Shown: positions 18,145 through 62,559 of the stretch, in pieces
How positions within the stretch are numbered: position 1 is the first letter of the stretch
How the letters are laid out: each line of letters starts with the position of its first letter
NCBI RefSeq assembly: GCF_000962805.1
Contig: NZ_JZTW01000001.1
Location: 62,001-126,000, forward strand
Length of the DNA: 64,000 nt
Reading direction: 5' to 3'
DNA from: Pseudarthrobacter chlorophenolicus
Lineage (GTDB): Bacteria > Actinomycetota > Actinomycetes > Actinomycetales > Micrococcaceae
The notes under the pieces: generated by a model
Seen by the model: only the letters and a program-made list of their open reading frames with translations
The model's database searches: none
What the model was told of the DNA's origin: nothing
Made by a program: the position numbers and the translations under genes

Positions 18145-18205
18145 GTTGCCCTATCACTTTTGGTCCCTAAACCGCGGGTTTAGGGACCAAAAGTGATAGG
18201 GCAAC
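18145..18205. repeat. family A long inverted repeat, copy A1
   Basis: A perfect 29-bp inverted repeat (18145-18173 with 18177-18205) and a 3-base loop. It begins GTTGCCCTATCACTTTTGG. It starts 26 bp after the paaZ stop and may end its transcript. Related copies lie at 31249 and 46711. The arms are more A/T-rich than the surrounding DNA. Confidence 0.9.
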
Positions 18206-25090: not shown

Positions 25091-25140
25091 TGGTTGAGCT
25101 TGTCGAAACCGCGTTCCAAGGGTTTCGACAGGCTCAACCA
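25091..25140. terminator. 20-bp inverted repeat after pta
   Basis: TGGTTGAGCTTGTCGAAACC at 25091-25110 pairs with 25121-25140, with one G-T type mismatch and a 10-base loop, three bases after the pta stop. Sequences like GGTTTCGACAGGCTCAACC are widely dispersed in actinobacterial genomes; only this copy was seen in the window. It probably works as a terminator. Confidence 0.7.
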
Positions 25141-31248: not shown

Positions 31249-31309
31249 GTTGCTCCATCACTTTTGGTTCCTAAAACCCGGGTTTAGGGACCAAAACTGA
31301 TAGAGCAAC
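31249..31309. repeat. family A long inverted repeat, copy A2
   Basis: A 61-bp imperfect inverted repeat related to A1 and A3, starting GTTGCTCCATCACTTTTGG. The arms differ at a few positions and by one base in the A-run. It lies between two divergent genes (S9 peptidase and the 31409 gene), so it follows neither gene's 3' end. Confidence 0.85.
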
Positions 31310-46710: not shown

Positions 46711-46769
46711 GTTGCTCTATCACTTTTGGTCCCCAAATCGGCGGTTTGGGGACCAAAAGTGATAGAGCA
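46711..46769. repeat. family A long inverted repeat, copy A3
   Basis: Perfect 25-bp arms at 46713-46737 and 46745-46769 around a 7-base loop, starting TGCTCTATCACTTTTGG. It lies 55 bp past the trxB stop and may end its transcript. Relative to A1 it carries paired changes in both arms. Confidence 0.9.
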
Positions 46770-58686: not shown

Positions 58687-59433
58687 TCAGGGAATAGCCG
58701 GCCGCACCTTCACGCCGCGCAGGGAGCGGAGAAGTACGACGGCGGTGACGGACCCCGCTGCCATGATGGACGCGAGCACCACCACCTGGAACCGGCCCGC
58801 CTCCAAAGGTGAGGCACCGCCGAAGATGGCGCCCACGAACGCGCCGGGCAGGGTGACCAGGCCTGTGGTTTTGGTCTGGTCCGTGGAGGGGATCAGGGCC
58901 GAATGCACGGACTGCCGGGCCTGCGCCAGCGTGGCAACACCCGCGGTGGCACCCAGCGCCAGCCAGCCTTCCACCTGGTCCCACTGCTCATTGACGGCCT
59001 CGTAGAACCGGCGCCCGGCCAGGGTGGCAATGCTCATGCAGTTGCCGATCACGATCCCGCCCACCGCCAGCACGTACCGCGGCGTGAAGTCGATCGCGCC
59101 GGTTGCGAACACCACGGCCAGGGTCACCGTGATGCCCAGGGCCATCGTCCCGGCCACCACGGCAAACCGGTGCCACTGCCAGCCCAGCCGGCGGGCCGCC
59201 GTCGTGGCCGCCACGCTGAACATGACCAGCAAAGCCGCGCCCACCCAGAGTGGATCGCTGATGATTCCGCCCAGGATGAGGCTGATGAGAGCCAGTTGGG
59301 CGGCGCCGCGGAGGATGGCCACGGCGGGGGCAAGGTAATGCGGAGTCCGGGAGCCCCACAGGACGCCCACCGTGAGGGCCACCAGGATGGCGAGCGCCGC
59401 CAGGGTGGGCAGCAGGTCGGTGAGGTGGGGCAT
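58687..59433 (-). CDS. FetB/YbbM-type ABC permease (UPF0014)
   Basis: 248-residue membrane protein with about seven helices. Family motifs are RGAAQLALISLIL, the mid GNCMSIATLAGRRFYEAV, and the late LPGAFVGAIFGGASPLEAGRFQ. E. coli FetB pairs with ATPase FetA in iron export. No ATPase is adjacent here. Palindrome B1 lies upstream of its start; no clear ribosome site was found. Confidence 0.87.
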   Translation of the reverse strand: MPHLTDLLPTLAALAILVALTVGVLWGSRTPHYLAPAVAILRGAAQLALISLILGGIISDPLWVGAALLVMFSVAATTAARRLGWQWHRFAVVAGTMALGITVTLAVVFATGAIDFTPRYVLAVGGIVIGNCMSIATLAGRRFYEAVNEQWDQVEGWLALGATAGVATLAQARQSVHSALIPSTDQTKTTGLVTLPGAFVGAIFGGASPLEAGRFQVVVLASIMAAGSVTAVVLLRSLRGVKVRPAIP

Positions 59434-59450: not shown

Positions 59451-59518
59451 CCCCAACTAGGTAGCAGCAGATGTCGTTATGGGGCCTCAAAACGACATCT
59501 GCTGCTACCTAGTTGGGG
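59451..59518. repeat. family B long inverted repeat, copy B1
   Basis: Perfect 28-bp arms (59451-59478 with 59491-59518) starting CCCCAACTAGGTAGCAGCAG, around a 12-base loop. It lies between the glycosyltransferase stop and the fetB-like start. Confidence 0.9.
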
Positions 59519-59539
59519 AAATTAGAATCGCGCCGCCGG

Positions 59540-61066
59540 TCAGGAGCAGGTGAAGGAAATCAGCAGCATGCGCTCGAAGGGCCGGTGGCCCGTTTCCCGG
59601 CAGCCTGCTTCTGCGAAGGCGGCGAGGTTTGCCGGCGCCCCGCCCTGGCCGACATAGAGGACATTTCCGCGGCGGGCCAGGTCCCTGGCCGAAACGGGCG
59701 AGTTCACGCCCCACAGCGTTCCGGACTCGGCAGGGCTTTCGGCGAGTGCGAGGTCAGCTACGCCGTCGAAGTGTTCCGGGTAGGCCAGGGCGAGGTCGCG
59801 CAGGTACGGTTCCCCGAATACGACGGCGGCGGGCCGGGGGAGTTCCCCGTCCAGCATGCGGGCGATGCGGCGCTCTGTGTCGGCGGGTTCGTTGACCACG
59901 CTCTTGATGGTCAGTTGGGGAACCAGGCTGCAGAGGACGACGGCGGCGAGCGCCACCGGGCGCAGCCAGGCTTTCCGGGCGGGCAGCTGGGAGATGCCCA
60001 GGCCCACCAGAAGGGCGAAAGCGGGGGCGGTGAAGGTCAGGTACCTGGCCACGTAGACCGGCTGGGCCACCAGGGTGACCAGCAGGAGCCCCAGGGCCGG
60101 GAGGATGATGATGGAGAGGCCCAGGACGATGAGCGTCCTGTGCCGGCCGTGGCGCCTTGCTGCCCAGATGCCCCACACCACCAGCCCTACCTCGAGTACG
60201 CCGAGCACCAGCATGGACCCGAGGACCCACTGCGGCGGCGCGTTGTTGGTGGGCCTGTCATCGCCGTAGAAGAACTGCTTCACGGCGGCGGTCATGAGAA
60301 TCTGGGCGAGGGACCGGTTTTGGATCCAGTCCACCTGCGCCTTCTGGCCCAGCGTGTGGAGGAGGAACGGCAGCACCGTGGCCCCGGCCAGGGCGGAGGC
60401 TACCAACGTGCCGATCACCCGGCGCCGCAGGATCACCGCTGCCGCCGCGTGCGCCATCACGGCGAGGACGAAGAACATGAACATCCAGACGCCCACCGCC
60501 GCGCACAGTCCGTACAGCACCCAGTCGAGGACGCGGTTGGATTCCCAGGCCCGCAGCAGGAGCAGGGTGAGTGCCACGGCCAGCAGGGCTGTGAATGCGG
60601 ACTGCCGGGCCTCGGTGCCGGCCCAGACCATGCGGGGCAGGAAGGCCAGGACCAGGCCGGCGGCGATGCCAGCGGTGGGGGAGCCCAGCTTGCGGCCAAT
60701 GACGGTTGTTCCGGCGCAGGCCAGCCCCACGGCCAGGGCGGACGGGATCCGCATGGCGATCTCCGAGAAGCCGAACACGGACGTCCAGAAGTGCATGAAG
60801 AGGTAGTACAGCCCGTGCACCGCATCCACGGACTGCAGGAGCAGCAGCAGTTCGCCGGGTGTGCGGCGGGCGGCGGAGATGGTGGCGATCTCGTCGTCCC
60901 AGAAAGAGGGGATCCACAGGCCCACGAAGGCGACGCAGAATGCGAGGAGCCCCAGTGCGGCCGGGAGCTTCCAGCCACTAGGTGCTGCGGCGGAGTCCGG
61001 GGCCTGCCGGCGGCTCCCGAGCTGGTCCGGTGTGCCTGGGTGCGTCGCAGTCCTCTGAGTTTCCAC
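59540..61066 (-). CDS. GT-C family glycosyltransferase (GT39/PMT-like)
   Basis: 508-residue membrane protein with about 10-11 helices. The first outer loop holds WDDE, typical of polyprenol-phosphate-sugar dependent GT-C enzymes. The C-terminal 110 residues form a soluble outer domain. Sugar and acceptor unknown. It starts GTG 61066 with a weak ribosome site, between palindromes B1 and B2. Confidence 0.82.
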   Translation of the reverse strand: METQRTATHPGTPDQLGSRRQAPDSAAAPSGWKLPAALGLLAFCVAFVGLWIPSFWDDEIATISAARRTPGELLLLLQSVDAVHGLYYLFMHFWTSVFGFSEIAMRIPSALAVGLACAGTTVIGRKLGSPTAGIAAGLVLAFLPRMVWAGTEARQSAFTALLAVALTLLLLRAWESNRVLDWVLYGLCAAVGVWMFMFFVLAVMAHAAAAVILRRRVIGTLVASALAGATVLPFLLHTLGQKAQVDWIQNRSLAQILMTAAVKQFFYGDDRPTNNAPPQWVLGSMLVLGVLEVGLVVWGIWAARRHGRHRTLIVLGLSIIILPALGLLLVTLVAQPVYVARYLTFTAPAFALLVGLGISQLPARKAWLRPVALAAVVLCSLVPQLTIKSVVNEPADTERRIARMLDGELPRPAAVVFGEPYLRDLALAYPEHFDGVADLALAESPAESGTLWGVNSPVSARDLARRGNVLYVGQGGAPANLAAFAEAGCRETGHRPFERMLLISFTCS

Positions 61067-61108
61067 CCGTTGACCCTACACGGGGCGGCGCACCCAGTTT
61101 CCCGTCCT

Positions 61109-61172
61109 CCAACTAGGTAGCAGCAGATGTCCTTATGGGGGCTCAAAACGACATCTACTGCTACCCAGTTGG
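61109..61172. repeat. family B long inverted repeat, copy B2
   Basis: Imperfect copy of the family with three mismatches between arms. Its right arm overlaps the last codons and the TAG stop of the 61161 gene. Confidence 0.85.
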
Positions 61173-61535
61173 GGAGGGGAGCGCGGCGGCAACGTCCACG
61201 GCTTCTTCGAGGGTGGCCGGCATGGCGGAGTGGAAGGCAGCCAGGGCGTCGGCTCCCCGGACTCCGGAGGCAAGCACCACCACGTGGACCACGTCATCGA
61301 ACGCTGCGCTGCAGGCGAGGACATCGCCCAGCCCGTGCTGCCAGTGGGGTCCAGGTTCTCCGTGAGGTTGGAAGACCACCCACCAGCCGGCATTGCCCGC
61401 GTCCAGGAAGACGTACCCGCCGGCCGGGTGGAGTGCATACCCGTTCACGCCGCGGCCGCCGTAACCTTCCACTTCGTCGGGAGCGGCGGCGAACCTAACC
61501 CCGCTGTCCCGTTGGGGTAGATCGTCCCAGCGCAT
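61161..61535 (-). CDS. protein of unknown function (about 124 aa)
   Basis: Soluble protein with aromatic-rich strands (GYALHPAGGYVFLDAGNAGWWVVFQ) and a helical C-terminus. ATG 61535 follows GGCAGGG; ATG 61574 is also possible. The last residues (PTG) and stop are written by repeat B2. Flanked by B2 and B3. No family recognised. Confidence 0.6.
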   Translation of the reverse strand: MRWDDLPQRDSGVRFAAAPDEVEGYGGRGVNGYALHPAGGYVFLDAGNAGWWVVFQPHGEPGPHWQHGLGDVLACSAAFDDVVHVVVLASGVRGADALAAFHSAMPATLEEAVDVAAALPSPTG

Positions 61536-61642
61536 GTGCCCTGCCTTTGCCCGTGCCAACCCCTGCACGTCCATCACACGCCCGGAGGCCGGAAAAGGAG
61601 CCAGCTTGCCGGTGATTTTGACGGGTTCTTGACGCACCCCTG

Positions 61643-61704
61643 CAACTAGGTAGCAGCAGATGTCGTTATGGGGGCGCAAAACGACATCTGCTGCTACCTA
61701 GTTG
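61643..61704. repeat. family B long inverted repeat, copy B3
   Basis: Perfect 25-bp arms (61643-61667 with 61680-61704) around a 12-base loop; arm sequence is the same as in B1. It lies between the SDR stop and the 61161 gene. Confidence 0.9.
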
Positions 61705-61728
61705 GGCGAGCCTGCGGGGCAAGGGGGG

Positions 61729-62559
61729 CTAGCCGGCGATGTCGGTGCTGGTGCTGAGATCCTTCCACTGCTCCCGCTCGGCCAGCTGGGCGTCGGCCAC
61801 CATGCCGAACGCGCCGTAAGCGTCCGTGCCCAGGAGCAGCAGCGCCGGCGGATTCCCGGATTCCGCCACCGTGATGATGGCTTCCGCCGCCTTCGCAGGA
61901 TCTCCGGCCTGGTTGCCGTCCATCGTGTCGTTCTCCTTGCGCCGCTTGCCGGCCGTGTCCGCGTAGTCCCCGATCGGCGTCGCGGACTGCGTAAGCGAGC
62001 GGCCGGCGAAGTCGGTGCGGAAGGCGCCCGGTTCCACGGCGGTGACGCTGATGCCCAGCGGCTGAACCTCGTTACGGAGCGATCCGCTCAGCCCCTCCAG
62101 CGCGGCCTTCGTGGCGGAGTAATAGCCGGACCCGGCCGGGGTGATGCGAGCGCCGATGGAGGAGATGTTGAAGATCGCACCGGCTTTCCGTGCCCGCATG
62201 CCGGGCAGGACTGCCTTGATCATGTCCACCGCGCCGAAAAAGTTCGTGTCGAACAAACTCCGGATGTCGCCATCATCCGCTTCTTCAACGGCCGCGCGGT
62301 ACCCGTACCCGGCGTTGTTCACCAGCACGTCCACGCTGCCGAAGCGCTCCTCGGCCTGCCGCACCGCGTCCGCCACCTGCGCCGTGTTGGTGACGTCCAG
62401 GGGGAGGACCAGGCTGGTGTCCGGGTGGGCCGCCGCGATGTCCTCCACCGCTGAGGCGTTTCGGGCGGTGACGACGGCGTTGTGCCCGGCCGCGAGCACG
62501 GCCTGGGCCAGGGCACGGCCAAGTCCGGTGGAGCATCCTGTGATGAGCCACGTTGCCAT
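61729..62559 (-). CDS. SDR family oxidoreductase
   Basis: 276-residue NAD(P)-dependent enzyme, classical type. Cofactor motif TGCSTGLGRALA, NNAGYGY, and catalytic Ser/Tyr/Lys in ISSIGAR and YYSATKAALEG. Clade with many retinol-dehydrogenase-like bacterial proteins; substrate unknown. Lies 34 bp after the aldo/keto reductase stop, likely one operon. Confidence 0.9.
   Translation of the reverse strand: MATWLITGCSTGLGRALAQAVLAAGHNAVVTARNASAVEDIAAAHPDTSLVLPLDVTNTAQVADAVRQAEERFGSVDVLVNNAGYGYRAAVEEADDGDIRSLFDTNFFGAVDMIKAVLPGMRARKAGAIFNISSIGARITPAGSGYYSATKAALEGLSGSLRNEVQPLGISVTAVEPGAFRTDFAGRSLTQSATPIGDYADTAGKRRKENDTMDGNQAGDPAKAAEAIITVAESGNPPALLLLGTDAYGAFGMVADAQLAEREQWKDLSTSTDIAG

Follow-up and report, generated by a model that had tools for sequence, protein, structure and literature searches.

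Described palindromic repeats and related nucleases

Dispersed palindromes known from bacteria include the REP sequences, which are extragenic, 20-40 bp long, tagged by a terminal GTAG and lineage-specific in sequence. Their dedicated gene, a RAYT encoding a Y1 (IS200/IS605-type) tyrosine transposase, is flanked by two copies of the repeat in an arrangement called a REPtron, and orphan repeats occur in genomes without the gene (PMC3733652). The same work describes CGTC-tagged REPs, which lack a dedicated transposase and have another sequence than the repeats studied here, and no nuclease partner was seen reported for them (PMC3733652). ERIC, Correia/NEMIS and the Rickettsia palindromic elements are also short palindromic repeats between or at the ends of genes, and no such nuclease partner is known for them. 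Two protein groups are relevant as well. The EDxHD homing endonuclease I-Bth0305I, related in fold to Vsr, dimerises on a target of nearly 60 bp (PMC3943268), and AbiEi is the antitoxin of a type IV toxin-antitoxin system and binds inverted repeats in its own operator.

Here, three long palindromes (B1, B2 and B3) in a window of 64,000 nt from Pseudarthrobacter chlorophenolicus (NZ_JZTW01000001.1; the genome is called G000 below) were compared with the REP systems and with these protein groups. They share with REPtrons the dispersed copies, the lineage-specific sequence, the occurrence of repeats in a genome without the gene and, in relatives, a gene flanked by two copies. However, they are 66 bp long and nearly perfect, they end in CCCAAC..GTTGGG and not in GTAG, and the gene beside them encodes a predicted AbiEi/Vsr-like nuclease instead of a RAYT. 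The arrangement works like REP/RAYT but is not placed in that family, as the Y1 transposase profile PF01797 was absent from G000 and matched in only one (G032) of 55 same-genus genomes. These comparisons suggest a so far undescribed partnership of repeat and nuclease.

Three palindromes at the 3' ends of genes

The elements and their neighbours, with Pfam assignments for the genes, are as follows.

59452..59517 (no strand), B1, a 66-bp palindrome with 27-28-bp arms and a 12-nt loop (91 bits with the covariance model of the element)
61108..61173 (no strand), B2, a 66-bp palindrome with three arm mismatches, whose TAG is the stop codon of gene 61161-61637
61641..61706 (no strand), B3, a 66-bp palindrome with 25-bp perfect arms
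58687..59433 (minus), UPF0014 membrane protein gene, starting 18 bp from B1
59540..61066 (minus), PMT_2-type glycosyltransferase gene, whose stop is followed by B1; absent together with B2 and B3 in the relative G054
61161..61637 (minus), gene without Pfam match, ending inside B2, start uncertain
61729..62559 (minus), short-chain dehydrogenase (SDR) gene, whose stop is followed by B3

The preliminary description had reported three near-identical palindromes within 2.3 kb, and this observation is confirmed. B1 can be read as 59451-59518 with 28-bp perfect arms, B1 and B3 share identical 25-bp arms, B2 carries one more change in the loop, and B2 and B3 are 93-94% identical to B1 over 67 nt. The three are copies of one palindrome with arms of about 27 bp and the consensus CCCAACTAGGTAGCAGYARRTGTCGTTWTGAG and its complement. 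The 19-mer arm has 6 matches at up to 3 mismatches against 0.01 expected, and 0 of 100 shuffles reach 6. All three lie between genes of the minus strand. B1 lies 21-22 bp and B3 22 bp past a stop codon, while B2 overlaps the 3' end of its gene by 13 bp. None of the four neighbouring genes is a transposase.

The earlier interpretation, recent local spread, perhaps of a REP-like non-autonomous element, with a possible RAYT elsewhere, is only partly supported. A dispersed, REP-like palindromic repeat with no transposase beside it is supported, whereas recent local spread is not supported and the RAYT partner is rejected, with no Y1 transposase in G000 and a hit in only one of 55 same-genus genomes. 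All three sites are occupied in the relatives G051 and G177, which are about 91% identical here, and many other copies sit at the same places in G000, G051 and G054, as read from the clear rows of a comparison that at loose settings also contained some false elements inside genes. Locally, copies resemble each other more than their counterparts in the sister genome, and in G051 and G177 B1 and B2 share a variant of their own, the two being near-identical to each other in G051, which looks like homogenisation rather than fresh insertion. In G054 a single element lies between the SDR and UPF0014 genes, and the two intervening genes and two elements are missing, the switch lying at the palindrome. 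The condition named beforehand as refuting the interpretation, old fixed terminators at the same sites in all relatives and nowhere else, was fulfilled only in part: sites are old, but occupancy varies.

Distribution, position and form of the family

In G000, DNA similarity gave 31 rows of matches, both strands counted, and a covariance model gave 42 rows, representing at least 18 distinct places. By DNA, 66 of 149 relatives have the element, all in the same genus. A pattern scan of named genomes returned at least 110 stretches, and the titles seen are Arthrobacter, Pseudarthrobacter or a Micrococcaceae MAG. With the model, 46 of 197 genomes and 14 of 32 genera of the family match at 1e-4 under stricter filters. 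Forty-seven elements read in 12 genomes of other genera are 60-76-bp palindromes, near-constant within a genus but different between genera, again at gene ends (26 tandem, 19 convergent, 1 divergent, 1 at an edge); seven of the 47 are flanks of a nuclease gene. No Rfam family matched in the window at the gathering score, no phage record matched, and the exact arm text was found in no paper of the open-licence library searched. Among plasmids only two records of Arthrobacter sp. StoSoilB13 matched, and a 1.35-Mb replicon of this strain (NZ_AP024648.1) holds 14 places of the element.

In the same-genus loci, 176 places were reduced to 149 distinct elements, which include orthologous copies and hence are not independent. 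Genes were called by codon usage trained on the window, also for other genera. None of the 149 lies inside a called gene; 81 are between tandem, 52 between convergent and 7 between divergent genes, and 9 lie at a locus edge. Compared with gene pairs of the same loci, convergent positions are in excess (52 of 140 against 143 of 778, Fisher 3e-6) and divergent ones in deficit (7 of 140 against 118 of 778, Fisher 7e-4). For 185 neighbouring 3' ends the median distance is 10 bp, 148 lie within 30 bp, and in 37 the element itself holds the stop codon (30 at -9, 7 at -13).

The distance between outer arm bases is 60 bp in 172 of 176 places. The arms covary, as 19 of 30 pairs changed on both sides (140 cells against 57 in shuffles), mostly at arm positions 17, 19 and 20, while outer arm positions match hardly better than independent arms would. 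Mixed arms and clustered changes, such as those between G000 and G054 at site L015, suggest exchange between copies. Unpaired half-sites are rare. Six were listed, only where a sequence lies inside the palindrome, at an internal duplication or at a masked stretch, and two of them are the ends of a 1.27-kb IS30-type insertion in a palindrome centre. Sequences inserted in the centre were seen at loci L119 (5304-6594), L168 (4699) and L152 (3582); L119 encodes an HTH_38 + rve protein and L168 shares its end. The palindrome seems to be a landing site.

Three further sites were read in 30 relatives each. Site L007 was occupied in 18 of 27 readable relatives (9 not, 3 unreadable), L015 in 10 of 23 (13 not, 7 unreadable) and L005 in 5 of 27 (22 not, 3 unreadable), and no clean empty site with target duplication was found at these sites. 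Where the element is absent at L007 (relatives L250-L278), the two genes run together without a gap; where it is present, the upstream protein has a variable C-terminal tail ended by the stop codon of the element. At L005 (relatives L226-L248) a 1.4-kb gene replaces the element in 11 of the 22, and other long hairpins occupy the same intergenic place in some species. Thus copies are old, are sometimes lost or gained with neighbouring DNA, and diverge while staying palindromic.

A predicted nuclease flanked by matched palindromes

Clustering of the genes next to elements exposed one protein family beside elements in several genera. Among 2436 genes of the loci it has 11 members, of which 9 lie beside an element, several with one on each side. 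Pfam matches at the C-terminus stay below the curated cut-offs (22.7-30.9 bits against 38.2 for MTES_1575 and 15.2-17.5 against 20.6 for DUF559), AbiEi_1 passes in one protein, and PADLOC assigns the N-terminus to AbiEi down to 3e-11. An AlphaFold model (pLDDT 91.9) aligns at its C-terminus with the catalytic domain of I-Bth0305I (3r3p, Z 12.7, rmsd 2.6, 96 residues), NGO0050 (Z 11.3) and Vsr (1cw0, Z 10.4), and at its N-terminus with the AbiEi antitoxin (6y8q, Z 10.0, rmsd 5.2, 178 residues); fold families outside the compared list are not excluded. Foldseek alone was weak (E 0.017) and gave no match at E <= 0.001, and two weak ranks above 3r3p, set aside here, are mitoribosomal proteins with TM 0.19-0.26. 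E208, D240, H257 and D266 are invariant in 28 sequences and follow the order of the EDxHD name, a correspondence of order only and not of residues mapped onto 3r3p. Unlike in the EDxHD homing endonucleases, the gene lies in no intron or intein in the loci seen, its product has an AbiEi-like N-terminal half fused to the nuclease domain, and it is flanked by its putative target palindromes, which are also dispersed.

For an independent test, 149 genomes of the family were searched by protein (105 with a match, 27 of 32 genera), and in 70 loci any long palindrome was sought within 500 bp upstream and from -60 to +120 bp of the stop. A matched pair was present in 23 of 70 loci: 14 of 27 of the closest clade, 1 of 7 intermediates and 8 of 36 distant paralogues. 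Five loci had first been found through palindromes (L414, L415, L416, L419 and L468; four from the class with 14 pairs and one from the class with 8); without them the counts are 11 of 23, 1 of 7 and 7 of 35, summing up to 19 of 65. The palindrome score was strict and some true flanks score lower (L429, L430 and L352 at 6109), so 23 of 70 is a low count, although 46 of the 65 independent loci show no detectable pair. The background was 2 of 584 genes in other stretches, both from the B1-B3 region itself, 5 of 532 in element-bearing loci, one being the nuclease of locus L147, and 1 of 65 neighbours in the nuclease loci (Fisher for 19 of 65: 1e-18 against the first and 1e-5 against the last). 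These sets used gene-called starts and at least 600 or 200 bp of flank, so the criteria are close but not identical. In loci L099 and L110 the same gene, which looks like malate synthase by its sequence, is bracketed by two elements.

Upstream and downstream palindromes of one locus are alike (0.72) and differ from those of other loci (0.18), and 20 of 23 rank their own partner first. The upstream copy mostly lies 50-200 bp before the start codon. Protein and palindrome divergence correlate (Spearman 0.47, 0 of 2000 permutations). Of the dispersed copies in other genera, 33 of 35 are nearest to a nuclease flank of their own genus, after one of 36 (L353 at 12475) was dropped as itself a flank. 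In a class-wide sample (118 of 197 genomes with a match), 7 of 29 new loci in three further families show a matched pair, a count without a matched background and without L488, which is the same gene as L422.

B1, B2 and B3 match one palindrome beside the L147 nuclease, a locus from the named-genome scan, at 64, 59 and 60 of 66 bases, and the next-best flank of another lineage is far lower (0.45 against 0.94 for B1). G000 lacks this nuclease and has only lower-scoring relatives of it (best 1.9e-46 in the family search and 195.6 bits in the class-wide one). At the place where G054, G051 and L147 carry palindrome, nuclease gene and palindrome, G000 has neither, but 113 bp of other DNA. In G051 about 1.6 kb of extra sequence lies between the nuclease gene and the downstream palindrome (L485:11716-14456). 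Nuclease units occupy a few recurring places, some shared between genera, which speaks for inheritance or homing, not free transposition. One distant paralogue in G000 (L396) has a different palindrome pair of its own.

Interpretation

We consider B1-B3 to be orphan copies of a repeat whose fuller form, in relatives, is palindrome, nuclease gene and palindrome, and we give this reading a probability of about 0.6. The data themselves establish the palindrome family, its place at gene ends, the matched pair around many nuclease genes and the pairing of one nuclease with one palindrome. What the nuclease does is inferred from fold and length: a dimer would bind the ~66-bp palindrome and nick or cut there, and repair from another copy would spread, homogenise and sometimes delete between copies, while copying of the gene into an unoccupied allele is likewise an inference. 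The upstream copy may also be the operator of the nuclease. In this view, copies survive mainly just behind stop codons because there they harm least and can even supply a stop codon, and in G000, where the cognate nuclease is gone, the copies drift. Against this reading stand the many nuclease loci without a detectable pair, the at least 18 copies in a genome with no cognate nuclease, and the absence of any recent insertion, target duplication or clean empty site among the sites seen; no experiment links nuclease and palindrome. A broader reading, about as likely as not, is a class of selfish or domesticated unit across the Actinomycetes in which an AbiEi-EDxHD nuclease and its private ~60-66-bp palindrome co-evolve, the nuclease homing into and between palindromes, seeding gene 3' ends and converting copies in concert, with orphan palindromes left when it is lost. 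This would give a function to a very numerous group of uncharacterised Vsr-like/DUF559-like proteins.

Repeat families such as REPs are usually tied to tyrosine transposases or left without a partner. Here another enzyme class appears beside matched palindromes, in many independent nuclease-palindrome pairs on which recognition can be tested directly, and searches of listings of open-licence papers showed none that makes this link. If right, the reading explains a set of gene-end palindromes in Micrococcaceae-type genomes, their lineage-specific sequences and their homogenisation, and offers long-target nucleases with natural cognate sites.

The strongest alternative, although unlikely, is that the palindromes are bidirectional transcription terminators or mRNA 3'-end stabilisers kept by selection on the RNA hairpin, their presence at nuclease genes being the same use. 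The position right after stop codons, the convergent excess and divergent deficit, the covarying arms and long-lived sites with compensated changes fit this view. However, no T-tract follows the hairpin in the sense strand (T 6-30% at each of the first 20 positions behind 121 elements), and neither a matching copy upstream of the nuclease start nor the nuclease-specific sequences are explained. In 116 distinct elements behind same-strand genes, G-U and A-C mismatches were 104 and 107 (49%, bootstrap 42-56%), where an RNA helix should favour G-U. This gives no sign of selection on a sense RNA helix, but the control is too small to settle the matter, with 7:1 in 13 T-tract hairpins (Fisher 0.066) and 27:17 and 167:171 in other gene-end hairpins.

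Less likely still, the flanking palindromes may be only the operator and terminator of a type IV toxin-antitoxin-like gene, with dispersed copies as decoys or a regulon of the same DNA-binding domain and nothing moving. The predicted AbiEi fold and the upstream copy fit, while the dispersed copies sit at gene ends and not at promoters, the nuclease-fold residues are invariant, and polymorphic occupancy and arm reassortment or ectopic conversion between copies remain unexplained. A non-autonomous MITE/REP of an ordinary insertion sequence or RAYT, with the nuclease hitch-hiking at recombination-prone palindromes, is the most doubtful. It would suit the dispersed, intergenic copies of constant length and the insertion sequences landing in palindrome centres, but RAYT is absent from G000 and from all but one of 55 same-genus genomes, the rarity of half-sites outside the palindrome means that no insertion sequence with these ends was seen among the fetched loci, and each nuclease is paired with its own palindrome. 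Integron attC sites, defined by an integron integrase and a cassette array, are a further possibility considered because of the gene-palindrome-gene units.

Other palindromes in the window

A second long palindrome family (GTTGCYCYATCACTTTTGGT...) lies at window positions 18145-18205, 31249-31309 and 46713-46769, and the 3' palindrome of a nuclease paralogue in the relative G158 (L467) shares part of it (local score 30 over 61). Furthermore, a 50-bp hairpin (TGGTTGAGCTTGTCGAAACC..) lies between convergent genes at 25091-25140, and a similar motif is found in a T-tract hairpin of locus L100.
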